A stretch of DNA of 64,000 nucleotides, from contig NZ_CP066779.1 of assembly GCF_016598535.1 (NCBI RefSeq), forward strand, positions 4,214,053-4,278,052. The letters are read 5' to 3'. The position numbers were made by a program, and so were the translations under genes. Source of the DNA: Rhodococcus sp. P-2 (GTDB taxonomy: Bacteria > Actinomycetota > Actinomycetes > Mycobacteriales > Mycobacteriaceae). Below the pieces are notes generated by a model. It did not search any database. It saw only the letters and a program-made list of their open reading frames with translations, and was not told the DNA's origin. How positions within the stretch are numbered: the first letter of the stretch is position 1; each line of letters opens with the position of its first letter. This document shows positions 249 to 60,652 of this stretch, in pieces.

Positions 249-554
249 CAATGAGGGACCGCCAATCGTGTTCGCTGTGCAGTGTCCACCCTGAGAGCAT
301 CGCGGAGTGCAAGTCGAGACGGGTAACCCCACCTACGAGGACGAGGTGCGTGGCTCCGAGCTCGAACTTGTGGACGTGGTTGATGCCACGTAATTGGCCT
401 CGGTGAGTGGCTGTGTCCGCTCCAGTCCTTGGTCCCGGTTGAGTGCTTCTATCAATCTCGCAATGCCAACAGCCTTCTCGTCCTCAGCACCGATATCGGG
501 CGTGCTCGGTTACAGTGCCCTGCATGAGCGGGACAGACTGTTGAAGTCGGCTGT
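249..554. other. Intergenic stretch with a putative leaderless promoter
   Basis: No supported gene longer than a few codons. The right part carries TACAGT at 511-516 followed by 7 nt and ATG at 524, the leaderless arrangement seen at many genes of this window. A minus-strand open stretch near 340-505 has no credible start and a Ser/Thr-rich tail, so I do not call it. Confidence 0.5.
524..544 (+). CDS. Putative leaderless six-residue upstream ORF (MSGTDC)
   Basis: ATG at 524 lies 7 nt after a TACAGT -10-like hexamer (511-516), so an mRNA started by that promoter would begin at this codon. The frame reads MSGTDC and stops at 542-544, 10 nt before the first possible start of the following transporter gene. 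This could be a small leader peptide that couples or tunes translation of the exporter. It could also be chance, because the sequence is too short to test by codon use. Confidence 0.3.
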   Translation: MSGTDC

Positions 555-575
555 GTGGCGCCGTGGATGGCTGCG

Positions 576-1802
576 ATGAGTGACGTTTCGCCGCCAAGTC
601 ACCGTTCATCGTTTCGACGCTTTCTCACGGCCGCGGTGATCAGTTCGGCCGGCTCGTCGGTGACAGCTGTGGCGATGCCCATTTTGGTAGTGCAGCTTTT
701 GGACGCGACGCCGTTCGAAGTGGGTGTGGTGAACGCGGCGCAGTTCATCCCGTATGCGGTGCTCGGGTTGGTCGCGGGGGTTTATGTCGATCGGTGGCGG
801 CGCAAGCCAATTCTCGTGTGGGCAAGCGTCGGTCGAGCGGTGGTGCTCGGTGCCGTCCCGCTCCTTTGGCTCGCCGGCCTTCTGCACATCTGGGTTCTGG
901 TCATCGTGTTGCTGTTGTTCGGCTCCTTCTCGGTGTTCGGCTTCGCCGCGATGCAGTCCTTGTTGCCCCGGCTGGTTCCACGCAGCCAACTGGTGAAAGC
1001 AAACGCTCGACTCGACCAAGCTGACGCAGTAGCAACGACATTGGGACCAACGGTCGGAGGCGCACTCGTAGGCCTGCTCGGCGCTCCCGTGGTGATCGCC
1101 GTCGACGCAATCAGCTACGTCATCGATGCCGCACTCAATTTCGGGCTCGACGTCGACGAGCCTCGACCCGCTTCTCGCTCCCGAAACCTGATGAACGAAG
1201 TGCGTGAGGGTCTGCGATTCACGTATCGCCACCACACTCTCAACCCGCTCGCGATATCGACGCACGTGTGGTTCCTTGCCAACGGAGCTGCGTTGACTGT
1301 ATTGTCGCTGTTCGCTCTTCGCTCGCTCGGGTTCAGTGCCTACACCTACGGTTTGCTGTTGACGACGTTCGGTGTCGCCAGCCTCCTCGGCACATCCTGC
1401 GCTCACGCGCTCGGCACGCGCATCGGATCAGGACGAGCAGTCATCCTGGCCCGCACGGTATACCCCGTCACCTGGCTTCTCGTGGCCTGCGCGACGGACA
1501 CAGATGTCGGCCATGTGTTGCCGTTCGCAGCGCTGGGCCTGCAAGGGTTGGCAGCGGGCGCGGAGAACGCGAACGAGATGGGCTATTGGCAAGCTCTCAC
1601 CCCCGATGAGCTTCTCGGGCGTGTCAACGCTGCCCGACGCTCCGTCAACCGCACCATGGCTGCCCTCGGCGCAGTGACAGCGGGTCTGCTGGTCAGCGCA
1701 ATCGGTGAACGCCTAACCCTGCTCGGCGTCACTGTTGTGTTCGCCATCGCTGCAGCCACATTGGGGTTCTCTCCGATGCGACATCCGACGCGCGAACTCT
1801 GA
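576..1802 (+). CDS. MFS exporter (MFS_3 / enterobactin-exporter type)
   Basis: About 408 residues, strongly hydrophobic, with the 10-12 membrane helices of a major facilitator. The cytoplasmic loop after helix 2 holds the MFS signature (GVYVDRWRRKP, near residue 70), and TLGPTVGGALVG in helix 5 is typical of antiporters that expel drugs or siderophores. The substrate cannot be read from sequence. Starts at 555 (GTG), 567 and 576 (ATG) are in frame and none has a clear ribosome site; 576 gives an N-terminus (MSDVSPPSHRSSFRRFL) usual for the family. A possible leader peptide sits just upstream. It is followed by an IS remnant, so the gene lies in an accessory segment. Confidence 0.8.
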   Translation: MSDVSPPSHRSSFRRFLTAAVISSAGSSVTAVAMPILVVQLLDATPFEVGVVNAAQFIPYAVLGLVAGVYVDRWRRKPILVWASVGRAVVLGAVPLLWLAGLLHIWVLVIVLLLFGSFSVFGFAAMQSLLPRLVPRSQLVKANARLDQADAVATTLGPTVGGALVGLLGAPVVIAVDAISYVIDAALNFGLDVDEPRPASRSRNLMNEVREGLRFTYRHHTLNPLAISTHVWFLANGAALTVLSLFALRSLGFSAYTYGLLLTTFGVASLLGTSCAHALGTRIGSGRAVILARTVYPVTWLLVACATDTDVGHVLPFAALGLQGLAAGAENANEMGYWQALTPDELLGRVNAARRSVNRTMAALGAVTAGLLVSAIGERLTLLGVTVVFAIAAATLGFSPMRHPTREL

Positions 1803-4921: not shown

Positions 4922-5023
4922 GCGTCGCAGCATCCTGGGGATTTCCGAAGTCCATGTGACCGGCCACACAGTTAAAACCCGGCAAATCTGGACTACGGTG
5001 CTGCGACGCCTATCCTGGACAGC

Positions 5024-5497
5024 ATGGCACGTATCACCGGAACTTGGCTCTCTGGGCCACAAGCAGCTTTGCCGAAGAGCGCGGACGGCCGTGAGCAGTC
5101 GTACCGTGGCGAGCTCCTCGGTTTCCCTCAGGAGGGTCCGGGTTCGCTGGTCGGTTCGGGCCGTCGTATTGCGGCACTGTTGGTGGATTGGGTGATGGCC
5201 GTGGGAGTGGCCTCGCTCATCACCGGTGACTTCTTCGACGGCATGACCTCGACGGTCACGCTGATGGTGTGGTTCGCCGTCGGTGTCGTCACCGTGGCGC
5301 TGTTCAACTTCACCCCGGGGCAGTTCGTCCTCGGACTTCAGGTCGCGCGAATCGAAGGCCCGATCCGAGTGGGCTTCCTGCGCGCGTTGGGACGTCAGGC
5401 GCTGCTGGTGTTCGTCATTCCCGCGACCATCACCGACATCGACGGTCGCGGTATGCAGGATCGCGCGACCGGCACTTTGCTCGTGAAGTCGCGCTGA
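5024..5497 (+). CDS. RDD-family membrane protein
   Basis: 157 residues, counterpart of Rv2219A. The RDD pattern is visible: GSGRRIAALLVDW (about residues 45-57, the Arg and Asp of the family), two or three membrane helices, and a C-terminal DRATGTLLV. The function of RDD proteins is not settled; transport or membrane homeostasis has been proposed. ATG 5024 lies 7 nt after TATCCT (5011-5016), so the mRNA is probably leaderless; no ribosome site is present. It is divergent from glnA and ends at a strong hairpin shared with the convergent DUF4191 gene. Confidence 0.85.
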   Translation: MARITGTWLSGPQAALPKSADGREQSYRGELLGFPQEGPGSLVGSGRRIAALLVDWVMAVGVASLITGDFFDGMTSTVTLMVWFAVGVVTVALFNFTPGQFVLGLQVARIEGPIRVGFLRALGRQALLVFVIPATITDIDGRGMQDRATGTLLVKSR

Positions 5498-5569: not shown

Positions 5570-6325
5570 TCAGCGACGACGAATGGTTCGCTGCATTCCC
5601 TTCATCTTCGCGCCTCCGGGCATCGGGCCCTTGGGAAGCGCTGCTCCGCCGCCGCGTGCGCTCAGCGCAGCGAGGCGACCTTCGATGTTGTCCATACGCT
5701 TTGTGTCGATGTTGCGAGGCAGCTTGTTCAGGTAACGCTGAAGCTGCGAGAGCGGAACTTGGCCCTCGTCGTTGCCGATGATGATGTCGTAGATCGGGGT
5801 GTCGCCGATGAGGCGAGCGGTCTTCTTCTTCTCCTGAGCGAGGAGGCCCTTGACGCGTTGCGGCGAACCCTCGGCGACGAGGATGACACCCGGCCGTCCG
5901 ACGACGCGGTGAACGGCGTCGAGTTGGGTGGTGCCGGCGACGGCGTTCGTGACGCGCCACGCGCCCTGCATGTTGTCGAGGGCCCACGCAGCGGCACCGG
6001 CCTGACCTTCAGCTTTCTTGTACACCGATTTCTGGACGCGGCGACCGAAGATGATGAAGGCACCGAGGAGACCGAGAACGATGCCGATCGGCAGCAGGAA
6101 CCACTGAAGGCCCCAGATGAGACCGACCAGGAAGAAGACCAGAGCCGCACCGACGAGGGTGCCGATCATCAGCGGCAGGAGGAGCTTGTCGTCCTTGCGC
6201 TGCATCTGGAATGCCTGCCAGAGCTGAGTTCTACGTTCCTTGGAAGCCTGCTTGCGGGCAGCCTTCGCTGCAGCCTTTGCCTCTTTGGTGGGTTTGCCCT
6301 TACCGGATTTGCTGCCGTTCGCCAT
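5570..6325 (-). CDS. DUF4191 membrane protein (Rv2219 type)
   Basis: 251 residues. A lysine/alanine-rich N-terminus (about 1-45) precedes two adjacent membrane helices (about 50-93, separated by GLQW), then a soluble C-terminal domain ending in a basic tail (RTIRRR). This matches the DUF4191 family found next to lipA in mycobacteria and relatives; no activity is known. ATG 6325 is 6 nt behind TATCCT (6332-6337, minus strand), a leaderless arrangement, so it has its own promoter although it follows lipA. The 48-bp palindromic repeat lies between the two. Confidence 0.85.
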   Translation of the reverse strand: MANGSKSGKGKPTKEAKAAAKAARKQASKERRTQLWQAFQMQRKDDKLLLPLMIGTLVGAALVFFLVGLIWGLQWFLLPIGIVLGLLGAFIIFGRRVQKSVYKKAEGQAGAAAWALDNMQGAWRVTNAVAGTTQLDAVHRVVGRPGVILVAEGSPQRVKGLLAQEKKKTARLIGDTPIYDIIIGNDEGQVPLSQLQRYLNKLPRNIDTKRMDNIEGRLAALSARGGGAALPKGPMPGGAKMKGMQRTIRRR

Positions 6326-6344
6326 GTACCCAGGATACGTCCAT

Positions 6345-6401: not shown

Positions 6402-7412
6402 TCAGCGATTCAGGCGCGCCATGAGCGAGCTGGCTTCCTGGGAGGCGTCTCCGCCCTCGGTGAGATGACGCTGCGCTTCGGGAAGTTCACGGCCGTGATG
6501 TGCCATGGCCTGCGCATACAGGCGCCCGGCGCGGTACGACGAGCGAACCAACGGGCCGGCCATGACGCCGGCGAAGCCCATCTCTTCTGCAGCCTTGGAG
6601 TGTGCGACGAACTCCTCGGGCTTGACCCACCGCTCGACGGGGTGGTGCCGGGGCGAGGGGCGCAGGTACTGGGTGATGGTGAGGATGTCGCAACCGGCGG
6701 CGTGGAGATCTGCCATCGCCTCGGTGACCTCTTCAGGGGTTTCGCCCATACCGAGGATCAGGTTGGACTTGGTGACCAGTCCGTAGTCGCGCGCTGCGGT
6801 GATGACGTCGAGGCTGCGCTGGTACCGGAAGGCCGGACGGATCCGCTTGAAGATACGGGGGACGGTCTCGAGGTTGTGTGCGAGCACCTCGGGGCGTGAG
6901 GCGAAGACCTCGTCGAGCAGTTCGGGCTTGCCGTTGAAGTCCGGAACCAGGTTCTCGACGCCGGTGCCCGGGTTGAGTTCGTGAATCTTGCGGACGGTCT
7001 CGGCGTAGAGCCAGGCGCCGCCGTCGGGGAGGTCGTCGCGGGCGACGCCGGTGATCGTGGAGTACCGAAGTCCCATGGCCTGAACGCTTTCGGCGACGCG
7101 ACGGGGCTCGTCGCGGTCGAGGGCTTCGGGCTTGCCGGTGTCGATCTGGCAGAAGTCGCAGCGGCGTGTGCACTGCTCGCCGCCGATCAGGAAGGTGGCT
7201 TCGCGGTCTTCCCAGCATTCGTAGATGTTGGGGCAGCCTGCTTCCTCGCAGACGGTGTGCAAACCTTCACGCTTGACCAGGCCCTTGAGCTCCGTGTACT
7301 CGGGGCCCATCTTTGCGCGGGTCTTGATCCAGTTGGGTTTGCGTTCGATGGGCGTCTCCGCGTTTCGGATCTCGAGACGGAGCAGCTTACGTCCTTCTGG
7401 GGCGATAGTCAC
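6402..7412 (-). CDS. lipA: Lipoyl synthase
   Basis: A radical-SAM enzyme that inserts two sulfurs into octanoyl groups on lipoyl domains. The 336-residue protein has both iron-sulfur cluster motifs: C55-x4-C60-x5-C66 (auxiliary cluster) and C81-x3-C85-x2-C88 (radical SAM). The C-terminal RSSY serine that binds the auxiliary cluster is also present. Start is GTG 7412, 7 nt after TAGGAT (7420-7425 on the minus strand), so the mRNA should be leaderless. It lies directly behind lipB and near the lipoylated E2 gene, a compact lipoate-assembly block. Confidence 0.97.
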
Positions 7413-7463
7413 GACAGTGATCCTACGCCCGGTGATTACTGCAACGGGGTTCGGGCGAGCCCG

Positions 7464-8225
7464 TCAGCTGTACTGAACGGTAGTAAAAGTCGGAGTAGGC
7501 GAGGCGCTTTCGTAGGTGACGCGCTCGACGTTCCGTTCGGTGACGGGCATGGTTCCGTCGAGAGCAGCGATCACTGCCTCGGTCACGGCGGGAGTGACTT
7601 CGTCCACGGTGACGTCGCGACCGAGTTCCTGCGACAGCGTTGTCACCCCGGCGTCACGGATGCCGCAGGGAATGATGTTGTCGAATCCGGTCAGGACCGA
7701 GTTGCAGTTCAGGGCGAAGCCGTGCAGTGCCACGCCCCGTTGGACGCGCACGCCGATGGCAGACACCTTGCGCTCGGGCTTCCATTGTCCGTTTGCAGTG
7801 TCGGCAGGCAGCCAGACGCCGGAGCGGCCGTCGATGCGCCCGCAGTTCAGGCCGAGGTTCGTGCACACGGTGATCAGTGCTTCTTCGATGCGTCGGACAT
7901 ATCGCACCACGTCGATGGGCTCGGCCAGTTTCACGATCGGATATCCGACCAGCTGGCCGGGGCCGTGCCAGGTGATCTTCCCGCCGCGGTCGACATCGAT
8001 GACAGGTGTGCCGTCGACGGGACGATCTTCGGGTTCCGTGCGTCGTCCTGCCGTGTACACCGGCGGGTGTTCGAGGAGCAGTAGCGTGTCCGGTCCGATG
8101 TCGTCTGCCCGCGCTTCCGCGAGCTCACGCTGGCGGTCCCACGCGGCGTTGTAGTCGATCAAACCGAGTTGCTCGACGGCGATCGGCAGTTTCGAGAACC
8201 GGGCGGAAACGGCAGCGCTGCTCAT
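7464..8225 (-). CDS. lipB: Octanoyl-[ACP] transferase
   Basis: Moves octanoate from acyl carrier protein to lipoyl domains, the step before LipA. Conserved parts are seen: [28 protein letters not shown], the lysine of [11 protein letters not shown] and the catalytic cysteine in IIPCGI. Two starts compete. ATG 8258 overlaps the stop of the upstream SDR gene (ATGA). ATG 8225 lies 8 nt after TAATCT (8234-8239) and gives 253 residues, nearer to the mycobacterial length. I prefer 8225. Neither has a good ribosome site. Confidence 0.95.
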
Positions 8226-8254
8226 GGACGTAGAGATTACGCCCGACTTCGGAA

Positions 8255-13318: not shown

Positions 13319-13476
13319 GGTGTCTCCTGTGAGGTGAGTGTGCGATGCGTCCGGTTCTGGCGGATGCCTGAGTCGATGTTAGGCCCTTTGCAGTTTGCGG
13401 ACGGGCGATCGTCTCGGCCGGGTGAGCTCTCGCTGCGGACATGTTTCGATCGGCGAAGTCCGATAGGTTGTGGGCC

Positions 13477-14577
13477 ATGACCGACGAACAACTGTTGCAG
13501 GGCCCGATCCACCCCGTCCACGTCGAACTCGGTGCGACGTTCGCGCCGTTCGGGGGGTGGCAGATGCCGGTTTCCTACGCCGGCGTCGTGGCCGAACACA
13601 CCTCTGTGCGTGAGAATGTCGGACTCTTCGACGTCAGTCACCTCGGCAAGGCCGTCGTGCGTGGCGCGGGCGCCGCAGAATTCGTGAACTCCGCACTGAC
13701 CAACGATCTGAACAAGATCGGGCCGGGCAAGGCTCAGTACACGTTGTGCTGCAACGAGTCCGGTGGCGTCATCGACGACCTCATCGCGTACTACGTCAGC
13801 GACGACGAGATCTTCCTCGTCCCGAATGCTGCCAATACCGCGGACGTCGTTGCGGCGCTGGTCGCTGTGGCACCGGACGGAATCACCGTCGAGGATCAGC
13901 ATCGTGCCTACGGTGTGCTTGCTGTTCAGGGTCCGAAATCGGTGGCTGTTCTGATGGCGCTGGGACTGCCCACCGAGATCGAGTACATGGCGTACGAAGA
14001 TGCGGAATGGAACGGCGTGCCCGTGCGTGTGTGCCGCAGCGGTTACACCGGTGAGGTCGGCTACGAACTCCTGCCGCGGTGGGAGGACAGCGAGCCGTTG
14101 TTCCGCGCGCTTGTCGAGGCAGTGCGCGCCGAGGGTGGGCAGGCCGCCGGACTCGGCGCCCGTGACACTCTTCGTACCGAGATGGGTTATCCGCTGCACG
14201 GGCATGAGCTTTCGCTCGAGATTTCTCCGCTCGAAGCGCGCTGCGGATGGGCGATCGGTTGGAAGAAGCCGACATTCTGGGGCAAAGAGACCTTGACCGA
14301 CGAGAAGGCTGCCGGCCCGGCTCGCAAACTCTGGGGGATCAAGGCTCTCGATCGCGGTGTGCTGCGGGCCGGCCTCGGTGTTCTGCGTGACGGCGAGGCA
14401 ATCGGCGAGACCACCTCGGGAACGTTTTCACCGTCCCTCAAAGTGGGAATTGCGTTGGCGCTCCTGGATTCCGGAGCCAATGTCGCGGCCGGTGACGAGA
14501 TCGAAGTCGACGTCCGTGGTCGCGCTCTTCGGTGCGTCGTGGTCTCTCCTCCGTTCGTGGAGACCAACACCAAGTAG
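13477..14577 (+). CDS. gcvT: Aminomethyltransferase, glycine cleavage T protein
   Basis: Transfers the methylene group from the lipoylated H protein to tetrahydrofolate. The 366 residues begin [40 protein letters not shown] and the folate-site region [15 protein letters not shown] are as expected. ATG 13477 is 7 nt behind TAGGTT (13464-13469), so it is probably leaderless; the frame runs 12 codons further upstream without support. No glycine riboswitch was found. gcvP and gcvH are not in the window. Confidence 0.95.
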
Positions 14578-14609
14578 AGAGCTTTTTCACGTTCGATAGG
14601 ATTGCGCCC

Positions 14610-15713
14610 ATGACAGGTGCCGCCGATTTCGTTCGTGTTCAGAGCTCGTCCCCGAAGTCCGACGCCGAGCGCCGCGACATTTTGGCGGCGCCCGGCTTCG
14701 GGCGGCACTTCACCGACCACATGGTCTCGATCGACTACACCGCGGGCAAGGGCTGGCACGACGCCCAGGTGTTGCCGTACGGAAACATCGAGCTCGATCC
14801 AGCCGCAATGGTTTTGCACTACGGACAGGCCATCTTCGAGGGCCTCAAGGCATACCGCCAGCCGGGTGGCGAGATCAGCTCGTTCCGCGTCGAGGCCAAC
14901 GCCGAGCGTTTCGCAGCATCTGCGCGCCGTCTCGCCATGCCCGAACTGCCGGCGCAGATGTTCATCGATTCCATCACCGAACTGATCGACGTCGATCTCG
15001 ACTGGGTTCCCGCTGCCGGCGGCGAGGACGCGCTCTACCTCCGTCCGTTCATGTTCTCCACCGAAGCCGGACTCGGCGTCCGTCCCGCCGACGAGTACCG
15101 CTACCTGCTGATCGCCTCGCCCGCCGGGGCGTACTTCCCGCGTGGGGTGAAGCCGGTCAGTGTGTGGCTGTCCACCGAATACGTTCGCGCAGCCCCCGGC
15201 GGGACCGGCGCAGCCAAGTTCGCAGGCAACTACGCCGCTTCGCTCCTCGCCCAGGCGCAAGCTGCCGACGAGGGTTGCGACCAGGTGGTCTGGCTCGACG
15301 CGATCGAGCGCACGTACGTCGAGGAAATGGGTGGAATGAACCTGTTCTTCGTCTTCGGTTCCGGTCCCGACGCTCGCCTCGTGACGCCGTCGCTGTCCGG
15401 TTCGTTGCTGCCCGGCATCACGCGCAACTCGCTGCTCGCCCTCGCTGCCGATTCCGGCTTTGCCGTCGAAGAGCGCAAGATCAGCACCGACGAATGGCGG
15501 ACCAAGTGCAAGAGCGGAGAAATCACCGAGGTCTTCGCTTGTGGCACAGCAGCAGTCATCACCCCCGTCGGACGCGTGAAGTCCGCCGAGGGTGAGTTCA
15601 CCATCGCCGACGGCGAGCCGGGTGAAGTGACGATGGCACTGCGCGACACCCTCACGGGTATTCAGCGCGGCACCTTCGCCGACACTCACGGCTGGATGAC
15701 CAAGCTTCACTGA
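14610..15713 (+). CDS. ilvE: Branched-chain amino acid aminotransferase
   Basis: Pyridoxal-phosphate enzyme for the last step of Val, Leu and Ile synthesis. Fold type IV, 367 residues, with catalytic Lys203 in [19 protein letters not shown] after it, and [11 protein letters not shown] near the phosphate site. ATG 14610 is 7 nt after TAGGAT (14597-14602), a leaderless layout independent of gcvT 32 bp upstream. The last 7 bp overlap the end of the convergent hydrolase gene. Confidence 0.96.
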
Positions 15714-20144: not shown

Positions 20145-20801
20145 TCAGATTGCGTCGCCCGGCCCCACACGAGGCTTCGGTGCGCGCAGCTTACGGATCT
20201 GCGACGCGCGAACGAATGCGTACCAGCCGAGCTTGAATCCGCCGTCGGTGCTGTCGGGGAAGCGCTCGGCGACGCGGTTGTTGATCATGCGACCGAGCCA
20301 GATGCCTTCACCGACCATGAAGAGCATCATCACGAGCATTGCCAGCGTGACGATCTGCTGGAGCGCCGGCGTGACGAACATCGTCATGATGAGGATCAAC
20401 GCGAGCGGCATGAACAGCCCGACGAGGTTGCGGCGAGCGTCGATGAAATCACGGACGTAGGCGCGAACCGGTCCCTTGTCGCGGGGGAGCAGGTACTTGT
20501 CCTCGCCGGCGAGCATGCGGGCGCGGCGGTCTGCCGACGAAGCGCGACGCTCGGCGGCTTCGGCCTTGCGGTCCTCCTTGGAGCCGCGGGTCGCCTTGCG
20601 GCGGGCGCGGGCTTCCTTCGCGGTCAGCGGGGCAGGAGCAACGGGGCCACGCCTCTTCGCCTCGGCGTCGCGACGCTTGGGTGTAGGGCGGCCCTTGCCC
20701 ACCTGCTCGATGGGCGCCTCTTCGGAGGCCGAGGATGCCTCAGTGCCCTCGACGTCACGTTTGTCGGAGTTGTCTGAGTCACCGCGGCGTAGCAATTTCA
20801 C
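20145..20801 (-). CDS. DUF3043 membrane protein (Rv2206 type)
   Basis: 218 residues: a charged Arg/Lys/Ala-rich N-terminal half (about 1-105), then a helical hairpin of two membrane segments (about 135-178, LVGLFMPLALILIMT and IVTLAMLVMMLFMV) and a short tail. Family DUF3043, with no known activity. GTG 20801 is 6 nt behind TAGCCT (20808-20813, minus strand), a leaderless layout; the GGAGGT between them touches the start codon and is too close to work as a ribosome site. It leads the cobU-cobT-cobS run. Confidence 0.85.
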   Translation of the reverse strand: MKLLRRGDSDNSDKRDVEGTEASSASEEAPIEQVGKGRPTPKRRDAEAKRRGPVAPAPLTAKEARARRKATRGSKEDRKAEAAERRASSADRRARMLAGEDKYLLPRDKGPVRAYVRDFIDARRNLVGLFMPLALILIMTMFVTPALQQIVTLAMLVMMLFMVGEGIWLGRMINNRVAERFPDSTDGGFKLGWYAFVRASQIRKLRAPKPRVGPGDAI

Positions 20802-20935
20802 ACCTCCAGGCTATTGGATAAGTGCATGGTCTGGGAAACCGACCTCGGTCTTTCTGAAAAACTCGATCGCCCGAGACGTTGAAACGCGCGAGATCGTGAA
20901 ACATCGGGGTCATTCGGGACTCTTAGACTTCGGTT

Positions 20936-22003
20936 ATGCGGGTAATAGTTGCTCCGGATTCATTCGGCGAAACCCTGACTGCCGTCGCGGCGGCCGAGTC
21001 CATTTCTGCCGGTTGGCGGCGCGGTCGACCCGGCGACGACGTCGTCACCGCGCCACAATCCGACGGCGGACCGGGATTCGTCGACGTGTTGGCAACAGCC
21101 GGAGGGGCCGTCCGGTCCGCGCGGGTGTCCGGACCGTTGACCTCGAGCGTCGACGCGCAGTGGCTGTTCGATTCGGGCACGGCATACATCGAGTCCGCTC
21201 AGGCCGTCGGGCTCGGTCTACTCGAAGGACCGCCGACGCGCGAGAGTGCGCTCGCAGCGCACAGTCGCGGTGTCGGAGAACTGATCGCGCTCGCCCTCGA
21301 TGCCGGCGTGAGGACGATTGTGGTCGGACTCGGCGGGAGTTGCTGCACGGATGGGGGACGTGGACTGGTGGAGGCGCTGGGCGGCTTGGAGGCGGCGACG
21401 GCGGCCACGGAGGGCGTTCGGTTGGTCGCAGCCACCGACGTCGAGCACGTTCTTCTCGGCGAGCATGGTGCGGCAGCGGTGTTCGGCCCGCAAAAAGGTG
21501 CCGACGCCGCGGCTGTTGCCGTTCTCGAAGCGCGGAATGCGACGTGGGCCGAGCAATTGGAGTCCGTCACCGGACAGCGAGTGTCGGAATTTCCGGGTGC
21601 CGGCGCCGCGGGTGGTATCGGTGCTGCGTTGTTCGCGCTCGGTGCACAGCGGCGATCCGGGGCCGACGTCGTCGCCGAGCGCACCGGGCAGGCAGCGCTA
21701 TTGGCATCGGCTGACCTGGTGATCACTGGTGAAGGTAAGTTCGACCACCAATCTCTGCGAGGCAAACTCGTCACTGCGCTCGCGTCGGCCGGGGCGGCGC
21801 ATAGCGTTCCGACGCTCGTCTTTGCCGGTCAGGTGACGCTCGACGAGACGGACTATGGGTCGACCTCGATAGCCGCGGCGAAATCGGTGACGGAGTTCGC
21901 CGGGTCGGTGGACCGTGCGATGAAGGAAGCGTCGGCGTGTCTCGAGGGACTCGCCGAACACACGGCACGCGAGTGGAACATCTGGCGTGGCGCCCCGAGC
22001 TGA
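20936..22003 (+). CDS. Glycerate kinase (GK1 family)
   Basis: 355 residues, counterpart of Rv2205c. The family pattern is clear: MRVIVAPDSFGETLTA at the N-terminus, VTAPQSDGGPGF, VVGLGGSCCTDGGRG, the GAGAAGGIGAALFALGA loop near 220 and VITGEGKFDHQSLRGK near 265. It phosphorylates glycerate with ATP. ATG 20936 follows TAGACT (20924-20929) by 6 nt, so it is probably leaderless. It is divergent from the DUF3043/cobalamin operon; 134 bp carry both promoters. Confidence 0.93.
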   Translation: MRVIVAPDSFGETLTAVAAAESISAGWRRGRPGDDVVTAPQSDGGPGFVDVLATAGGAVRSARVSGPLTSSVDAQWLFDSGTAYIESAQAVGLGLLEGPPTRESALAAHSRGVGELIALALDAGVRTIVVGLGGSCCTDGGRGLVEALGGLEAATAATEGVRLVAATDVEHVLLGEHGAAAVFGPQKGADAAAVAVLEARNATWAEQLESVTGQRVSEFPGAGAAGGIGAALFALGAQRRSGADVVAERTGQAALLASADLVITGEGKFDHQSLRGKLVTALASAGAAHSVPTLVFAGQVTLDETDYGSTSIAAAKSVTEFAGSVDRAMKEASACLEGLAEHTAREWNIWRGAPS

Positions 22004-32968: not shown

Positions 32969-33457
32969 ATGGCAGCTACACACAAGAGTAGACCGTGGTT
33001 CCTGAGAATTTTCGGCACGAAGATTCCGACACCGCTCGATGCAGGGCGGTCGGATCTGGTCGTCGTCGCCGAAGGCTTCGACGACGCCGAGGCGAGCTCG
33101 ACGGCTCTCGAACGTGCCGCCTCCACCGAGCCGGAGTTCATGGCGGAGTCCGAAGTGGTTCTGCGGCACCATCTCGACCTTCCGGAGGACTTGGTTGCCG
33201 ATGCCGAGAGCATCGTCGCCCAGGACGGATACGTGCGAGGCGCGAGTCGGCCCGAGGACGTGGCTCAGGCGGTCGAGAATTCGGTTCGCGTCATCTTCGA
33301 GCGGGTCCAGGTGCTCGACGCGCTGCATTGCTCCCAGGAGCGTTCACGAATGGCCGGTCTGGCGCAGCGGCTCGGTGGTTCGGTCGCCGGGTGGGACGCG
33401 CTCCAGCCCCCGGTTCTCGCGGAGGCGCCGCCCAAACGCGGTCGCCGAAAGTCCTGA
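32969..33457 (+). CDS. Unknown 162-residue protein divergent from ctaE
   Basis: It starts [18 protein letters not shown], has an acidic central region ([15 protein letters not shown]) and ends in a basic tail (PPKRGRRKS). No membrane segment is visible. Its alternating acidic helices vaguely recall small regulators that pair two halves of one sequence, but I do not recognise a family. ATG 32969 is 6 nt after TATGCT (32957-32962), a clean leaderless layout, which argues that it is expressed. The open frame runs 88 codons further upstream into the ctaE region and is not supported. Confidence 0.72.
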
Positions 33458-36784: not shown

Positions 36785-37252
36785 ATCGCAGACAGTAGAA
36801 GGACCCCCCGACAGGAATTGGAGAATGCCGACGCGGAATCCGGCTCACTCCGACTTCCATTGCGAAAGCAGCGGATCGGCCCCCGACAAAAGTATGAGAG
36901 ACGAGGATCACACTTGCGGTGGGAACTCGCGAATGCGGACTCCTGCCTACTTGCCGGTAGGGCGATTCGGAGGGCCTTTGCTGCGTTGATCGGTGGCTGA
37001 CTTCGCGCCCGTGAACGGAACAGGTTCTAGTTTCAAGTAATTGTCGTTGAACTGCGCGGAAGATCGGATTGTCGGGTTTGGTGAGCCTTGGCAGTGGGTA
37101 ACGGGTGCACGTTTGCGGGCCGAGGGTGGGGCGCCGAACCGACCTGTTGTTATCTCCTCGTGACCCGCCGGGCGTATCGCGGGCGCGGCACCACGATTTC
37201 CGGCGAATCGGGCGCGATTGTCACGAAGCGGTCGACATCGTCGCGATCATTT

Positions 37253-39433: not shown

Positions 39434-39507
39434 CGGCTTGCTGCGCCCGAGCGGCGTGTGGCCAGCCGCCGTGAAGCGTCGAGTCGAGTTCTCCTACACT
39501 CGGCACC

Positions 39508-40866
39508 GTGCCGACTGAACCGATGACGACGCCCGACGTCGGCGCAGATCGACCACGCCGTTGGGAGTATTCGGCCCTCGTGGCGCTCGGCGTAGCCGTG
39601 GTGCTCGTTCTCGGTTTGACGATCTTCCTGACGAACAGGTCCGATTCCGACGAAAGTGCGGCCAGCGAGCAGGACGCCGAACGAACCGCGCAGGTACAGG
39701 CATTTCTCGACGCATGGGCTGCAGCGCAGATGTCCGACGATCCGTCGGGGCTGGCGAAGTTCGTCGACAATGCTGCCGCCCCCGGTGTGCTCGAGGCGGA
39801 AATTCGACGAGCCACTGCAGCGGGAGCGCTCGATTTCTCCGACTGGGGATACGAGATCCCCAGCGGCGGCCTGACTCCGGCGCCGCGAACCGGTGCACCG
39901 GACGGAGACGTCGAAGTCTGGAATGCGCAAGTTCTGTTTCGGTACGCCCTCGACGGCGTCGACGCATTGCCCACTCGCAAGGCAGTGTCCATGACGCTCG
40001 CGAAACGCGGCGATCAGTGGTCGGTTCTTGCGGACGGGTCGATCGTCGGACTGGACGGCGCCCGAACGGCAGGCGAATCCTGGAACGGCCCCTGGGACTT
40101 CGGCCCGCTGGCCGTCGCCGAAAACACCGCGCGCAATGCACTCGTGATCGGTCACCCGGGTCAGCAGGCGTTCGTCGACGCTTTGGCTGCAGATGTGGAC
40201 TCAGCCATCGAGAACACAACGCAGTTGTGGGGGCCGTGGTGGTCCGAGCGCGCGGTGCTCATGGTGGCGGGGTCCTCGGAGGAATTCACCGCACTGGTCG
40301 GCTCTCATCACGACGGCGCTTCGATTGCCGCAGTGTCGGTCGCGGATGCAACGACGGACGGGTCTTCCGACGTGAGCGGCCAGCGGGTGGTCTTCTCACC
40401 CGCCGCGGCTTCGAGGTTGACCGACATCACCAGGCGAACGGTATTGCGCCACGAACTCATGCACATAGCCGCCCGATCGAAAACCCGTGACGGGTCGCCG
40501 ATGTGGGTGTTGGAAGGGTTCGCCGAGTACGCGGGAAATCGTGGATCCTCGCGGGCCTGGGGTGAGATCGCGCCGACTCTGGCAGCAGCGGTCCGTGCCG
40601 GCGACACACCGACGGAGTTTCCGGACGACACACAGTTCGGCGGTGTCCCGGTTGTGAGTTCGCTGGCGTACGAATCGGCGTGGTCTGTCAACGCGTATAT
40701 CGCCGATCGATTCGGCGAGGCCAAGCTGACCGACCTCTTTCGCGCCCTCGCTTCCGGAAAGATGACGGCCGAAGATCTCGACTCGCGAATCCGAGCGGTC
40801 CTGGGCGTCGGAACCGAGGAACTGCGACTCGGATGGGTCGACTGGACCGACAGCCATCTGGGCTGA
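39508..40866 (+). CDS. Membrane-anchored HExxH protein (peptidase MA-like)
   Basis: 452 residues: a short cytoplasmic N-terminus, one membrane helix (about 22-43), an extracellular NTF2-like region (about 55-190) and a C-terminal zinc-protease-like domain. It has H315-ELM-H319 and, 17 residues on, E336 in WVLEGFAEY, the gluzincin pattern. So it is probably an active surface metalloprotease; the substrate is unknown. GTG 39508 follows TACACT (39495-39500) by 7 nt (leaderless). It lies between wall hydrolases and pimB'. Confidence 0.82.
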   Translation: MPTEPMTTPDVGADRPRRWEYSALVALGVAVVLVLGLTIFLTNRSDSDESAASEQDAERTAQVQAFLDAWAAAQMSDDPSGLAKFVDNAAAPGVLEAEIRRATAAGALDFSDWGYEIPSGGLTPAPRTGAPDGDVEVWNAQVLFRYALDGVDALPTRKAVSMTLAKRGDQWSVLADGSIVGLDGARTAGESWNGPWDFGPLAVAENTARNALVIGHPGQQAFVDALAADVDSAIENTTQLWGPWWSERAVLMVAGSSEEFTALVGSHHDGASIAAVSVADATTDGSSDVSGQRVVFSPAAASRLTDITRRTVLRHELMHIAARSKTRDGSPMWVLEGFAEYAGNRGSSRAWGEIAPTLAAAVRAGDTPTEFPDDTQFGGVPVVSSLAYESAWSVNAYIADRFGEAKLTDLFRALASGKMTAEDLDSRIRAVLGVGTEELRLGWVDWTDSHLG

Positions 40867-40911: not shown

Positions 40912-40989
40912 GTCTCGAAGCGCAGCGTGCCCTTGTCACGTCTCGATGCGCAGCGTGCCCTTGTCACGTCTCGAAGCGCAGCGTGCCCT
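40912..40989. repeat. 28-bp tandem repeat, 2.8 copies
   Basis: Units begin GTCTCGAAGCGCAGCGTGCC at 40912, 40940 and 40968; unit 2 differs by one base in the first 22 and unit 3 is cut short. The last unit runs into TACGGT, the -10-like hexamer of pimB'. No spacers are present, so it is not a CRISPR. Confidence 0.9.
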
Positions 40990-41000
40990 ACGGTGGACGA

Positions 41001-42128
41001 ATGCGCCGGACCCTCTTGGTGACCAACGACTTTCCTCCTCGCCCCGGAGGTATCCAGTCTTATCTCCACACGTTCGCCGGGCATCTGCCGCCGGACAAGT
41101 TGGTGGTGTACGCACCGCGGTGGCGGGGCGACTCGCACAAGAAGTTCGATGCGGCACAGCCTTTCGAGGTCGTTCGGCACCCGACGACACTGATGTTGCC
41201 GTCGCCCTTCGTCGCTCGTCGGGCTGCGAAGCTGGTCAAGAAGCACGACTGCGAGTCGGTCTGGTTCGGTGCGGCAGCGCCGTTGGCGTTGTTGGCGCCG
41301 GTTGTTCGGCGCGCCGGAGCGAGCCGAGTGATCGCGAGTACTCACGGCCACGAGGTCGGATGGTCGATGATTCCCGGTGCGCGGCAGTCGTTGCGTGTGA
41401 TCGGTGATCACACAGATGCGGTGACGTTTGTCAGCAAGTACACCCGTGGGCGGTTCTCGGCGGCTTTCGGCCCGCAAGCGGCGCTCGAGCACCTTCCATC
41501 CGGAGTGGACACGTCGGTGTTCCACCCGGACTCGGTTGCCCGTGCAAAACTGCGTAAGCGATACGGGTTGGGAGAGCGGCCCACGATCCTGTGCCTGTCG
41601 CGGCTCGTGCCACGCAAGGGGCAGGACATGCTCATCAAAGCGCTGCCGACGATTCGGAAGAGCATCGACGGAGCAGTGCTGGTGATCGTCGGGGGTGGGC
41701 CGTACGAGGACCATCTCCGTCAATTGGCGCGCAAGACCGGCATGGACGATCACGTCGTCTTCACCGGCACGGTGCCTGCCGCAGAGTTGGCGGCTCACCA
41801 CACTGTTGCCGACGTGTTCGCCATGCCGTGCCGCACCCGAGGCGCCGGATTGGACGTCGAAGGACTGGGAATCGTCTACCTCGAGGCCTCGGCTACCGGT
41901 GTGCCGGTCATCGCCGGGCGCAGTGGTGGCGCTCCGGAAACCGTGCAGCAGAACAAGACCGGGCTCGTGGTCGACGGCACCTCTGTTCGTGACGTCGCCG
42001 AATCCGTGATCGAGGTGCTGTCCGATCGTGATCGAGCGGCCGCGATGGGAGCAGCCGGCCGGGCGTGGGTTGCCGAGGAATGGAAGTGGGACACGCTCGC
42101 TTCGAAGCTGCGTAATCTCCTCGGCTGA
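41001..42128 (+). CDS. pimB: Mannosyltransferase of the PimB' type
   Basis: Adds the second mannose to phosphatidylinositol mannoside (Rv2188c). 375 residues, GT4 GT-B fold: the N-terminal LLVTNDFPPRPGGIQSYL loop, STHGHEVGWS, the lysine of LSRLVPRKGQDML, and the EX7E motif EGLGIVYLEASA (donor site). ATG 41001 lies 6 nt after TACGGT (40989-40994), a leaderless layout; the frame open upstream is a shadow of the preceding gene. A perfect 17-bp palindrome ends the unit. Confidence 0.93.
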   Translation: MRRTLLVTNDFPPRPGGIQSYLHTFAGHLPPDKLVVYAPRWRGDSHKKFDAAQPFEVVRHPTTLMLPSPFVARRAAKLVKKHDCESVWFGAAAPLALLAPVVRRAGASRVIASTHGHEVGWSMIPGARQSLRVIGDHTDAVTFVSKYTRGRFSAAFGPQAALEHLPSGVDTSVFHPDSVARAKLRKRYGLGERPTILCLSRLVPRKGQDMLIKALPTIRKSIDGAVLVIVGGGPYEDHLRQLARKTGMDDHVVFTGTVPAAELAAHHTVADVFAMPCRTRGAGLDVEGLGIVYLEASATGVPVIAGRSGGAPETVQQNKTGLVVDGTSVRDVAESVIEVLSDRDRAAAMGAAGRAWVAEEWKWDTLASKLRNLLG

Positions 42129-48832: not shown

Positions 48833-48844
48833 TAGTTTTCGGAC

Positions 48845-49336
48845 GTGCGCTACTTCTACGACTGCGAATTCATCGAAGACGGTCGAACCATCGATCTCGT
48901 GTCCATCGGCGTCGTCTGCGAGGACGGCCGTGAGTACTACGCGGTCTCGACCGAGTTCGATCCTGCCCGCGCCGGTAGTTGGGTGCGCAAGAACGTGCTG
49001 CCGAAATTGCCGCAGCCGTCGTCTCCGCTGTGGAAATCACGCGAGAAGATCCGCGACGATCTCTTGAAGTTCTTCGTTCCGCGGCCGATGGTCGTTCCGG
49101 AGCTCTGGGCGTGGGTCGCCGCCTACGACCATGTCGCGCTGTGCCAATTGTGGGGCGATATGACCGAACTACCGCAGTCGATGCCTCGGTACACCCGCGA
49201 ACTCCGACAGTTCTGGGAAGACAACGGCAGTCCTGCCCTCCCGTCAGCGCCCGCCGACGCACACGACGCACTTGCCGACGCCAGGCACAACCTCGTGAAG
49301 TTCGACGCGATTTCGGCAGCTCGTTCACTTCGCTGA
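48845..49336 (+). CDS. DEDDh 3'-5' exoribonuclease (Rv2179c type)
   Basis: 163 residues, a short RNase T-like fold. D6 and E8 (YDCEFIEDG) form motif I; the last motif has HDALADARHN. The M. tuberculosis homologue trims RNA 3' overhangs. GTG 48845 is 6 nt after TAGTTT (48833-48838), so it should be leaderless and start immediately at the end of the plsC terminator. Confidence 0.9.
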   Translation: MRYFYDCEFIEDGRTIDLVSIGVVCEDGREYYAVSTEFDPARAGSWVRKNVLPKLPQPSSPLWKSREKIRDDLLKFFVPRPMVVPELWAWVAAYDHVALCQLWGDMTELPQSMPRYTRELRQFWEDNGSPALPSAPADAHDALADARHNLVKFDAISAARSLR

Positions 49337-50812
<1,476 letters not shown>

Positions 50813-50893: not shown

Positions 50894-51322
50894 TCATGGT
50901 GTGAATCGTGTGACGAATCGGCGCTGCCAGGGCATTTCGACGGCGCGGGGTGAGTAGTGTGCGCGAACGTACGCGGTGGCGTCCTTACTCGACACACCGC
51001 CCATGATGGCGAGAGCAGCCAAAGCTGTCCCGGTGCGGCCGTATCCACCTCCGCACGCGATCTCGACTCTTTCGCTTTCCGAACGCACCCACACTTCGTG
51101 CAGGGCGCTGCGCAGCGCATCGGGATCGCTGGGCAACCAGAAATCGCGCCAGCGGACCCACACCGAATCCCACACGGTGGTGGGGGGTTCTTTACCGGTC
51201 AGGTAGACGCCGAAGGTGGGGAGGGGTCCGGAAGGAAGTGGATTGCGGAGCCCTCGACCCCGAATCGATCTTCCCGACGGCAAGTCGAGTATCCCGAGGC
51301 TCTCGGGTTCCCACGTGGCCAT
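50894..51322 (-). CDS. Protein-tyrosine-phosphatase-like protein
   Basis: 142 residues. The P-loop CGGGYGRTG fits C-x5-R-(S/T), with the catalytic Cys after VEIA and Arg before TG; the general-acid Asp may lie in the stretch WRDFWLPSDPDALR. It is a compact dual-specificity-type phosphatase, substrate unknown. ATG 51322 is 6 nt after TAGTCT (51329-51334, minus strand), a leaderless start. It lies directly behind pknL on the same strand, a kinase-phosphatase pair by position. Confidence 0.8.
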   Translation of the reverse strand: MATWEPESLGILDLPSGRSIRGRGLRNPLPSGPLPTFGVYLTGKEPPTTVWDSVWVRWRDFWLPSDPDALRSALHEVWVRSESERVEIACGGGYGRTGTALAALAIMGGVSSKDATAYVRAHYSPRAVEMPWQRRFVTRFTP

Positions 51323-51349
51323 GAATTCAGACTAGGCCGAAGCGGACTG

Positions 51350-53413: not shown

Positions 53414-53731
53414 CCCTCGACCTCCGTAATGACTATTCCTCCGTGCTTGCGATCTGCGTGCTTGCGATCTGTCTGCTTGCGGTCTGGGTGGTAGCTGTCA
53501 GCAATGTGGGTGGTTGTATACCGCGTACTGGCTCCCGCAGTGAGGCACCGATTCACATCCACCGCGAAATCCCGGTTACTGATACGCCGCATCCCGTCCA
53601 TCGTAGCCAGCGATACCGACGCGGAAGTCTCGAGAACGTCACAGAGCATGGTGGCCGTACCGGAGTGGCGGTTTCGAGCACTGCACCGGGCGGTACACAG
53701 CGGGCTCGTCGGACCGGATAAACTTCTCGCG

Positions 53732-54100
53732 GTGAGCGCGATTCCTTATTGTGATGATGTCCTGGATTCTTCGGTGTCCCTGTTCCAACTGGTGGATGTG
53801 GCGAAGAACGTCGGGTTGCCGGTGAGCAAGGTTCACCAGCTACTTCGCGATCACAAGATCATCGCAGTCAAGCGTCACGGTGTTCTCGGCGTTCCCGAAG
53901 TGTTCTTCGGTGAGGACGGCCAGATCGTCAAGTGGCTGCCCGGTCTCCTGGCGGTGCTGCACGACGGCGGCTACACCGACGTCGAAATCCTTCGCTGGTT
54001 GTTCCTGGCCGACGACTCCCTGCCCGGTCGCCCGGTAGACGCACTGCACGGCCATCTCGCGCGTGAGGTCATCCGCCGCGCACAGGCCATGGCTTTCTGA
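53732..54100 (+). CDS. Rv2175c-type DNA-binding protein
   Basis: 122 residues: SAIPYCDDVLDSS, a helix-turn-helix (LVDVAKNVGLPVSKVHQLLRDHKIIAVKR), VPEVFF and the end RPVDALHGHLAREVIRRAQAMAF. In M. tuberculosis the homologue is a PknL substrate phosphorylated on an N-terminal threonine that reduces DNA binding. The start is GTG 53732, 7 nt after TAAACT (53719-53724); the frame is open 76 codons further but without homology. With this start the N-terminal tail and its threonine are absent. Divergent from pknL. Confidence 0.88.
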   Translation: MSAIPYCDDVLDSSVSLFQLVDVAKNVGLPVSKVHQLLRDHKIIAVKRHGVLGVPEVFFGEDGQIVKWLPGLLAVLHDGGYTDVEILRWLFLADDSLPGRPVDALHGHLAREVIRRAQAMAF

Positions 54101-58350: not shown

Positions 58351-58352
58351 GG

Positions 58353-59492
58353 TCAGTAGCTTCGCTTCGTGGCCGCGATCGCCATGTCGGTCAGACGTGA
58401 CTTGGCTTCTGCCGTTGCCGTGCTCGCGTCGAGGGCGTTCGCAGCTGCCTCGACGAGGGCGTCGATCTGCGTTTCGACGTCGGTGACGGCGCCGAGATCG
58501 GTGATCGCCTGGCGCAGGCTGTCGACCTCGTTGTCGGTCAACTGGGTGCCGATTCCGTTGCGGAGCAGTTGTGCGGAGGCCGGGTCTGCGGCGTCGGCGC
58601 GGGCGAGCGCCATCGCGAACAGCACCGTCCGCTTGCCGGCAATGAGATCGTCGCCCGACGGTTTGCCCGTGACGGACGGATCTCCGAAGACACCGAGCAG
58701 GTCGTCGCGAAGTTGGAAAGCGACACCGATGTCGGTGCCGAACGTCCGGTAGGCATCGATCAACTCGGCGTCTGCACCGAACAGTGCGGCGCCGAGGTGC
58801 AGTGGGCGTTCGATCGTGTACGCGGCGGTTTTGTAGCGGTTGACCCGCATGGCTGCCTCGACGGTCTCGTCTCCTCGGGCTTCGTTGCTGATGTCGAGGA
58901 ATTGGCCACCGAGAACCTCGGTGCGCATTGCCGACCAGACCGGACTGACTCGAGCGGCCGCCTCGGGGCTGATCCCGGATTCTCGGATCATGTCGTCCGC
59001 CCAGGCCAAGGCCAGATCGCCGAGAAGTATGGCGACGGCCTCGCCGAAGTGCGCGGAGTCGCCGCTCCACTCCTGGCCTCGGTGCTGGTCTTCGAATTCG
59101 ACGTGAACGGTCGGGAAGCCGCGCCTGGTCGTTGATGCGTCGATGATGTCGTCGTGGACGAGCGCGCAGGCCTGCACCAGTTCGAGGGCGGCGCACGCAC
59201 GAATCACAGCGTCTGCGTCCTTACCGTTCGGGTCGCCTCCGGCACCGAGCCATCCCGTCCAGGCAAAGGACGGCCGAACGCGCTTTCCTCCGCGCAGGAC
59301 GAAGGCCTCGAGGGTACTGACGGCCTTCTCGTAACCACCGCCGATGGTCGAGACGAGTTCGCGGCGTGAATCGAAGAAGTCGCGGAGCGCTCCTTCGAAC
59401 AGGCCCGGCAGTTCGAGTGAGGTCGGATGCGGTGCGGTGTTGGTCGAACTCTGTCCAACGCGCGCGGTTCCTGCGGACAGGGTGGCCTCCAA
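58353..59492 (-). CDS. idsA2: Polyprenyl (geranylgeranyl-type) diphosphate synthase
   Basis: 379 residues, counterpart of Rv2173. GGKRVRP, the first aspartate motif DDIID (after ALVHDD) and the second DDLLGVFGD are intact, so it should be active. It likely makes the C15-C20 diphosphate used by crtB next door. TTG 59492 is the best available start; GAACAT lies 7 nt before it and no ribosome site is clear, so the N-terminus is uncertain. The first 30 residues are disordered. Confidence 0.9.
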   Translation of the reverse strand: MEATLSAGTARVGQSSTNTAPHPTSLELPGLFEGALRDFFDSRRELVSTIGGGYEKAVSTLEAFVLRGGKRVRPSFAWTGWLGAGGDPNGKDADAVIRACAALELVQACALVHDDIIDASTTRRGFPTVHVEFEDQHRGQEWSGDSAHFGEAVAILLGDLALAWADDMIRESGISPEAAARVSPVWSAMRTEVLGGQFLDISNEARGDETVEAAMRVNRYKTAAYTIERPLHLGAALFGADAELIDAYRTFGTDIGVAFQLRDDLLGVFGDPSVTGKPSGDDLIAGKRTVLFAMALARADAADPASAQLLRNGIGTQLTDNEVDSLRQAITDLGAVTDVETQIDALVEAAANALDASTATAEAKSRLTDMAIAATKRSY

Positions 59493-59662
59493 GATCGGTA
59501 TGTTCTCGCGCCGGAGGGTTACACGGAAGCGAGCTTGGGGCCCAGCTTAGTGGGGGTTGGAATCAACGGCGGTTCGGGCCGTGAACTGCGTGATCCTGAC
59601 ATTCGGGATACGCAGTCCTGGGCGATGAGCTTGTTTGCAGGTGGAAAACATATGCTTGACCG

Positions 59663-60652
59663 GTGACATTCGATCCAGTCAGGGGCCGCTCCAGCGAGGG
59701 GTGGGCCACCCGAACACCGTCGATCGTCGATCGGATCGCTTCCTCGACAGGTAGCCGTATTCCGTTCTCGGTCGAGTTTTCGCCGCCGCGTGACGCGGAC
59801 GCCGAAGCGCGCCTGTGGCGTGCGGTGCGTACCTTCGAGCGGCTCGGACCGGCGTTCGTCTCGATGACCTACGGCGCAGGTGGCTCGACGCGCGATCGTA
59901 CGGTGCGCGTCACCGGTGAACTGGCCGAAGAGACGACCCTGCTGCCGGTTGCTCACCTGACTGCCGTGTCGCACAGCACCGAAGAACTTCGCGCCATGGT
60001 CGGTGCCTACGCCGATCGTGGCATCAGCAACATCCTCGTGTTGCGCGGCGATCCGCCCGGCGATCCCCTCGGCGAGTGGAAGAAGCATCCCGAAGGCGTC
60101 GAGTACGCCGAGGAACTCGTGCGGATGGTCCGTGACCTGGGCGACTTCCACGTCGGCGTCGCATCGTTCCCGGAGGGGCACTACCGCGCTCCGGACTTGG
60201 CATACGACACGAAGTACCTGGTGTCGAAGTTGCGTGCCGGCGCCGAGTACTCGATCACTCAGATGTTCTTCGACGTGGAGGACTACCTGCGTCTTCGTGA
60301 CCGGGTGAGTGCTTACGACGCAGAACAGGGCGCCAAGCCGATCATCCCGGAAATCATGCCGGTGACGTCGCTGCGCTCGGTGCGGCGCATGCTCGAGCTG
60401 TCGGGCTCGTCGTTGCCCCCCGCTCTCGAGCGTCGATTCGACGCCGCGGCCGGAAGCGGCCCGGAAGAGAACCGTGCAGCCGTCCGAGAGCTCGGCATCG
60501 ATCTGGCCACCGAGATGGGAGAGCGGTTGATCGCCGAAGGCGCTCCGTGCCTGCACTTCATCACGTTGAATTTCGCGCGTGCAACCAGTGAAGTCCTCGA
60601 GCGCCTCGGTCTCACCCCCGACACCTCTGTCGGGACAGCCCAAGCCGTCTGA
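59663..60652 (+). CDS. Methylenetetrahydrofolate reductase (MetF fold)
   Basis: 329 residues. PFSVEFSPPRDADAEARLWRAV holds the conserved Glu; FVSMTYGAGGSTRDRT, TAVSHSTEELRAMVGAYADRGISNILVLRGDPPG and ITQMFFDVEDY follow the MTHFR barrel. It makes methyl-folate for methionine. Counterpart of Rv2172c by position. GTG 59663 is 6 nt after TATGCT (59651-59656), a leaderless start. Divergent from idsA2; a hairpin follows. Confidence 0.92.
   Translation: MTFDPVRGRSSEGWATRTPSIVDRIASSTGSRIPFSVEFSPPRDADAEARLWRAVRTFERLGPAFVSMTYGAGGSTRDRTVRVTGELAEETTLLPVAHLTAVSHSTEELRAMVGAYADRGISNILVLRGDPPGDPLGEWKKHPEGVEYAEELVRMVRDLGDFHVGVASFPEGHYRAPDLAYDTKYLVSKLRAGAEYSITQMFFDVEDYLRLRDRVSAYDAEQGAKPIIPEIMPVTSLRSVRRMLELSGSSLPPALERRFDAAAGSGPEENRAAVRELGIDLATEMGERLIAEGAPCLHFITLNFARATSEVLERLGLTPDTSVGTAQAV

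Follow-up and report, generated by a model that had tools for sequence, protein, structure and literature searches.

Seventeen genes in a 64,000-nucleotide stretch of the Rhodococcus sp. P-2 genome (contig NZ_CP066779.1, positions 4,214,053 to 4,278,052; hereafter the window, meaning this stretch at its full length) are most probably transcribed without a leader. Each is preceded by a hexamer of the form TANNNT, 6 to 8 nt ahead of an ATG or GTG (RTG) start codon, and we read these hexamers, with a probability of roughly 0.92, as the −10 elements of SigA-like promoters whose first transcribed base would be the A or G of the RTG. The window belongs to a 6.34-Mb single-contig genome, and for one protein of the window the records of both Rhodococcus qingshengii and R. 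erythropolis show 100% identity. A preliminary description had listed 18 such sites as leaderless promoters at gene starts. All 18 hexamers match TANNNT where it had placed them, and the spacing and codons are as it had described, with a gap of 6 nt at nine sites, 7 nt at eight and 8 nt at one, followed by ATG at ten sites and GTG at eight. The placement at gene starts stands for 17 of them, whose open reading frames (ORFs) span 122 to 586 codons; it does not stand for the hexamer at 511, whose ATG opens an ORF of six codons. Sixteen of the 17 belong to genes called by our gene finder, the gene at 51329 being uncalled. Leaderless promoters are the best reading of these 17 sites in view of the RTG-limited spacing, the avoidance of Shine-Dalgarno sites, the position in operons and the conservation.

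In the mechanism that we propose, the hexamer would be the −10 element of a housekeeping-type (SigA-like) promoter that rests on its −10 box, transcription would start at the A or G of the start codon, and the resulting mRNA, having neither a 5' leader nor a Shine-Dalgarno site, would be taken up by ribosomes initiating at the 5'-terminal RTG. At 511 the same promoter design would open a six-codon upstream ORF rather than a gene. The hexamers, their spacing, the limitation to RTG, the absence of Shine-Dalgarno sites, the conservation and the joint movement of start codon and hexamer can be read from the sequence. We infer the transcription start, the sigma factor and the 5'-terminal initiation, taking the transcription and translation starts from published mycobacterial work.

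Distance between the hexamer and the start codon

As a gene sample we used the window and 40 roughly evenly spread 20-kb stretches of the same genome (864 kb, 685 genes called with a home-made coding-potential model that is blind to upstream signals). Genes near the end of a locus were excluded, which left 669 of the 685 for the gap profile and 663 for the start-agnostic and Shine-Dalgarno tests. TANNNT was found 51, 27 and 10 times per 1000 called starts at gaps 6, 7 and 8, and 0–7 times at the other gaps; before internal RTG codons the rate was 0–2 per 1000 at every gap. When all candidate starts were counted at gaps 6 and 7, ATG gave 34 and 22 cases, GTG 17 and 18, TTG 3 and 1, and CTG 0 and 1; the spacing peak is thus present for ATG and GTG and absent for TTG and CTG.

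Among the 53 called genes of the window, 11 carried the hexamer at gaps 6–8, compared with 3 over the other 27 gaps combined. Allowing any ATG or GTG of the ORF as the start raised the count to 16 of the 53 genes in the window and 86 of the 610 outside it (control gap triples 0–4 and 10–18, respectively), a total of 102 of the 663 sampled genes (controls 10–20). The roughly twofold density of hexamer genes in the window (p 0.004) comes from a post hoc comparison and is perhaps owed to its being core genome. Around all RTG triplets of the window, on both strands, the hexamer occurred 13, 12 and 6 times at gaps 6, 7 and 8, with a mean of 4.7 elsewhere.

Sequence context of the hexamer genes

The preliminary description had stated that the hexamer genes lack a ribosome site, and this holds: only two of the 17 have as much as a 4-nt AGGA, which in both cases lies within the hexamer itself. 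In the genome sample, Shine-Dalgarno motifs 4 nt or longer precede 3 of 59 hexamer genes vs 282 of 604 others (p 1.7e-11); one of the 59 starts with TTG. The same description had gone too far in assigning AGGAGG-like sites to most genes that lack the hexamer, since of the 37 other window genes 16 carry a motif at least 4 nt long and 9 one at least 5 nt long, and the proportion in the genome sample is the 282 of 604 just given, all of these counts being lowered by start-calling errors.

Hexamer genes are scarce directly behind co-directional genes. Once 37 genes with no upstream neighbour in their locus were left out, 3 of 58 hexamer genes lay at most 20 bp behind such a gene vs 119 of 568 others, which fits promoters at first genes, although the agreement is statistical only. 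Alignment of the 58 called hexamer genes on the hexamer revealed an enrichment of C (frequency 0.52) and G (0.48) at 4 and 3 nt upstream of it, respectively. We found no sign of a −35 element in the 102 hexamer genes, in which the best matches at 15–19 nt were no better than those at a control offset.

We also considered a downstream signal specific to leaderless genes and rejected it: synonymous conservation of codons 2–7 was 0.75 vs a bulk value of 0.57, but genes with a Shine-Dalgarno site gave 0.83 vs 0.59. At codons 8–13 the hexamer genes were less conserved (80/194 vs 172/269, p 1.4e-6). As a separate observation on a small sample, the second codon is ACT in 8 of the 58 called hexamer genes and 11 of all 102, in 3 of 95 Shine-Dalgarno genes, and at a frequency of 0.006 in bulk.

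Comparison with related genomes

Ten relatives offered syntenic DNA for comparison, and we excluded site 511, missing orthologs and alignments beginning beyond residue 90. Of 155 gene-by-genome cells, 149 have kept TANNNT at a gap of 6–8 before an in-frame RTG, and each of seven control gap triples gave 0–9 of 155. The five far relatives alone kept hexamer and gap in 68 of 74 cells (controls 0–9). All six misses come from two genes, the one at 32957 in the five far relatives and the one at 39495 in one relative.

Identity to four far relatives was 0.56–0.95 at positions −7 to −20 and mostly 0.15–0.4 at −21 to −35. In genes with a Shine-Dalgarno site the upstream DNA was conserved from −1 onward. 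These profiles were built on 39 and 57 pairs, after exclusion of pairs in which the start codon was not aligned or identity within the first 30 codons fell below 50%; for comparison, 20 of the 37 non-hexamer genes were chosen by hand, and upstream DNA that is partly coding may raise their identity. A further set of named loci comprised the best 80 of 482; here the hexamer was kept in 80/80 for the DUF4191 gene, 76/79 for the RDD gene, 48/49 for lipB and 52/52 for lipA, with nine-gap controls of 0/80 for the DUF4191 gene and 1/49 for lipB. The starts that the preliminary description had claimed to fix (lipA, lipB, aroG, the Rv2175c type and the uvrC-like gene) are supported by this conservation. 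Profile hits bear out the names it gave to these genes, except that the uvrC-like protein stays below the cut-offs in its UvrC part.

Displaced start codons in aroG and other genes

The start of aroG can be recognised by the motif RTG-AAY-TGG-ACN-GTN-GAY, which we found in 165 of 201 genomes of the family and in 28 of 31 genera; the 36 genomes with no match to it were left out. The hexamer lies 6–8 nt before the RTG of the motif in 120 genomes. In 31 genomes of six genera it stands at that distance (6–8 nt) from another RTG, which immediately precedes the first (one codon earlier), and in 14 genomes of one genus a GTG two codons earlier follows it at a gap of 7 nt. Together, hexamer and spacing are present in all 165 motif-bearing genomes. 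Every one of the 45 genomes with a shifted hexamer has an in-frame GTG 6–8 nt behind it; these represent only seven genera and, because genomes of the same genus are not independent, few evolutionary events stand behind the counts. As hexamer and spacing are kept across zero, one and two added codons, the start codon seemingly tracks the promoter.

Shifts of this kind were also observed elsewhere, the start having moved in frame with the gap kept in 15 of the 155 gene-by-genome cells. The gene at 36792 has its start displaced by 18–75 nt in seven of ten relatives (the case in genome G014 is the least sure), that at 39495 by 6–12 nt in four of ten, and lipA and the DUF4191 gene in one of ten each. 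A side observation in relatives G002, G023 and G018 is that lipA seemingly has about ten added N-terminal codons, its promoter still being at gap 7. We lean towards the view that leaderless start codons may be anchored to the promoter and not to the protein: after an in-frame move of the −10 element, the RTG at the fixed spacing would become the start, and the N-terminus would grow or shrink. Among the matches listed in the open-licence literature we found no account of start codons in leaderless genes moving with their promoter, though one may have been published elsewhere. An internal RTG with a hexamer at 49781, inside aroG, was also considered; the codon is CTG in 4 of 9 relatives, and we took it for chance.

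Alternative explanations

Several observations weigh against leaderless promoters at these sites. The starts given by the gene finder are imprecise. The 31 TANNNT-N6-8-RTG strings of the window equal the number in dinucleotide shuffles (mean 29.8, range 19–44, n = 30); this total matches the shuffles, yet the counts vary with the gap, so the signal resides in location and spacing and not in number. In the named loci, the nine-gap control also matches 16/79 for the RDD gene and 33/52 for lipA, and because of the latter the lipA count is weak when taken alone. Identity to the far relatives rises slightly again at −36 to −45. Site 511 is not a gene start, the hexamer at 32957 is found in 5/5 near relatives and 0/5 far ones, and the gene at 51329 is uncalled and placed by a Pfam hit and one ortholog; these three are the weak points of the set. 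Second copies of the aroG motif in three genomes (G090, G153 and G172) have the hexamer at this spacing neither before the RTG of the motif nor before an RTG directly ahead of it. The gene for RNase AS, which ends 90 bp before aroG in the window, retains the strict motif in no more than 8 of the 27 loci used from other genera (three of 30 loci were left out, two lacking the gene and one lying at an edge), and by eye two of them have a Shine-Dalgarno-like GAGGAG. Since RNase AS, the gene at 32957 and the second aroG copies lack the motif in these places, not all genes are bound to the leaderless mode. For 32957, a natural switch of initiation type between clades is possible. One of its far orthologs has, by eye, a GGAGGAG site. 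In the RNase AS loci L200–L210 we noticed by eye several near-hexamers close to the start that are one base off TANNNT. Counting by the strict motif may miss some leaderless starts.

The promoters could be real and yet give a short leader (1–5 nt) or a transcript that starts just inside the gene, with translation from another codon. Offsets this small are below the resolution of sequence, and a gap of 8 does occur; however, gaps of 9 or more are at background, the peak is confined to ATG and GTG, and the extra in-frame GTG behind every shifted aroG hexamer, if only in seven genera, would not be needed by leaders of free length. We consider this very unlikely. Next to no probability attaches to the idea that the hexamers are an artefact, either of in-frame TAA or TAG stops upstream of the start or of chance strings picked by a reader. 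The raw string count and the fact that gap 6 puts the TA in frame would suit it, but the enrichment extends to gap 7, where the TA is out of frame, and this already contradicts it; moreover, the CG before the hexamer is unrelated to stops and the motif is kept over ten relatives. Additional promoters further upstream, known beside leaderless ones in bacteria whose transcripts have been mapped, could make the leaderless mRNA a minor isoform only. The slight rise in identity at −36 to −45 would agree with them, but within the 45 nt compared, identity near background at −21 to −35 hardly points to another conserved promoter nearby, and we regard such a situation as rather improbable.

Relation to published leaderless genes

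Leaderless promoters of this pattern belong to the known actinobacterial leaderless mode (Zheng et al., 2011; Cortes et al., 2013; Shell et al., 2015) and are ordinary in kind. Judged by sequence, the hexamer genes have the features of TA-led genes: the first T of TANNNT about 12 bp before the start, RTG codons only, no Shine-Dalgarno site, the position of a first gene, and SRN/CGN ahead of the hexamer with no −35 element. The whole-genome survey of TA-led genes in Actinobacteria by Zheng et al. (2011; PMC3160421) reports switching of the initiation type among orthologs, as we see here; its main text does not name Rhodococcus, and the promoter-following shift of the start codon is not to be found in the available portion. 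In Mycobacterium tuberculosis, Cortes et al. (2013; PMC3898074) reported SRN/CGN-TANNNT with no −35 element at mapped promoters, a preference for starting at a purine, the use of both ATG and GTG, and leaderless transcripts for 26% of the genes with a primary transcription start site (TSS). According to the sections of that article at hand, TANNNT lacking a −35 element, the preceding SRN/CGN and the two start codons are common to both data sets; theirs is TSS-mapped, whereas ours is deduced from sequence (102 of 663 genes in the start-agnostic count). The accessible text of Shell et al. (2015; PMC4633059) describes a 5'-end RTG as necessary and sufficient in M. smegmatis, with TTG and CTG performing poorly.

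Within the genus, a leaderless start has been proposed for kstD3 of R. ruber (PMC5348764), from the closeness of the promoter and the lack of a Shine-Dalgarno site, and on the same grounds for the pen operon promoter, by context from R. jostii (PMC11998424). As far as the available excerpts go, both concern single genes and give no window- or genome-wide pattern. The matches listed from the open-licence literature included no genome-wide TSS map of Rhodococcus; one may have been published elsewhere. Leaderless starts in Rhodococcus can be located, and several start calls settled, from sequence and its comparison between genomes, and comparative spacing is a cheap substitute where no TSS map exists. 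The promoter-tracking start codon is to us the most interesting detail. The aroG case suggests that the beginning of a protein can be determined by where its promoter lies, and this bears on annotation and on N-terminal evolution in leaderless-rich lineages.

Individual sites in the window

The 17 genes are given here with the span from hexamer to gene end and, in brackets, the relatives in which the site is kept. The genes lipA and lipB and a DUF4191 gene follow one another on the reverse strand. The DUF4191 protein (5570..6337, Pfam DUF4191) has TATCCT at 6337-6332, a gap of 6 and ATG 6325 (10/10); lipA (6402..7425, NCBIfam lipA above cut-off) has TAGGAT at 7425-7420, a gap of 7 and GTG 7412 (10/10); and lipB (7464..8239, NCBIfam LipB) has TAATCT at 8239-8234 and ATG 8225 at the only gap of 8 (10/10). 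Three further genes lie on this strand: a DUF3043 protein (20145..20813, Pfam DUF3043) behind TAGCCT at 20813-20808, with a gap of 6 and GTG 20801 (10/10); a DEDD exonuclease with a UvrC-like part (35024..36797) behind TACTGT at 36797-36792, with a gap of 7 and GTG 36784 (10/10 when an in-frame start shift is allowed), which scores above the NCBIfam cut-off for DEDD exonuclease and below those for UvrC and GIY-YIG; and the tyrosine-phosphatase-like gene (50894..51334, Pfam Y_phosphatase above cut-off) behind TAGTCT at 51334-51329, with a gap of 6 and ATG 51322. The ortholog of the last was found in 1 of 10 relatives, with nearly identical upstream DNA.

On the forward strand, TATCCT precedes ATG 5024 of an RDD-like protein at gap 7 (5011..5497; 10/10; Pfam RDD just below cut-off). 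Two genes that lie close together share this gap, gcvT with TAGGTT and ATG 13477 (13464..14577; 9/9; NCBIfam gcvT) and ilvE with TAGGAT and ATG 14610 (14597..15713; 10/10; NCBIfam ilvE_II). Glycerate kinase has TAGACT, gap 6 and ATG 20936 (20924..22003; 9/9; NCBIfam TIGR00045). At 32957..33457, TATGCT with gap 6 leads to ATG 32969 of a protein with no NCBIfam or Pfam match (5/10). A protein with a weak peptidase-MA match (Pfam below cut-off) has TACACT, gap 7 and GTG 39508 (39495..40866; 9/10) and is followed by a glycosyltransferase-like gene with TACGGT, gap 6 and ATG 41001 (40989..42128; 10/10; the NCBIfam matches shown are below cut-offs). RNase AS (48833..49336; NCBIfam RNase_AS) has TAGTTT and GTG 48845, and aroG, for class II DAHP synthase (49415..50812; NCBIfam DAHP_synth_II), has TATCCT and GTG 49427, both at gap 6 and both kept in 9/9. 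The remaining two are an Rv2175c-type DNA-binding protein with TAAACT, gap 7 and GTG 53732 (53719..54100; 9/9; Pfam Rv2175c_wHTH and Rv2175c_C) and a methylenetetrahydrofolate-reductase-like protein with TATGCT, gap 6 and GTG 59663 (59651..60652; 9/9; NCBIfam fadh2 just below cut-off).

A short ORF upstream of the MFS gene

At site 511 (511..544, forward strand) TACAGT stands 7 nt before ATG 524, which opens the six-codon ORF. The MFS gene that comes after it has, by eye, its likely main start at ATG 576, and it ends at 1802. The DNA of this site had no match in 27 other genomes of the genus. An MFS paralogue in the same genome (locus L193) is 89% identical over 612 aligned letters and keeps the hexamer, the gap of 7 and the ATG; indels separate the two before the MFS gene, and by eye the short ORF of the paralogue is different and longer. 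The 511 ATG may perhaps begin a leaderless upstream ORF ahead of the transporter gene. Leaderless small ORFs before genes, one of which keeps its start and not its peptide, as at 511, appear in the part of Shell et al. (2015; PMC4633059) at hand; here the small ORF is known from sequence alone. In 511 and its one paralogue we see the corresponding traits, that is, an RTG at promoter spacing, a short ORF, a start that is kept and a peptide that varies. Cysteine-rich leaderless attenuator ORFs were reportedly described by Canestrari in 2020, a work that PMC9094748 cites. The ORF at 511 has one Cys codon and not the several of a cysteine-rich attenuator.

A repeated palindrome

A near-perfect palindrome of about 50 bp occurs twice in the window, at 6344-6393 in the interval that separates the lipA end from the DUF4191 promoter, and at 11748-11795 between convergent genes, and more copies lie in three of the 40 sampled stretches. 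These palindromes may possibly be terminators or a REP-like element. A query containing the palindrome gave, among the matches listed, 18–20 matches in ten genomes of the genus and 1–5 in others.

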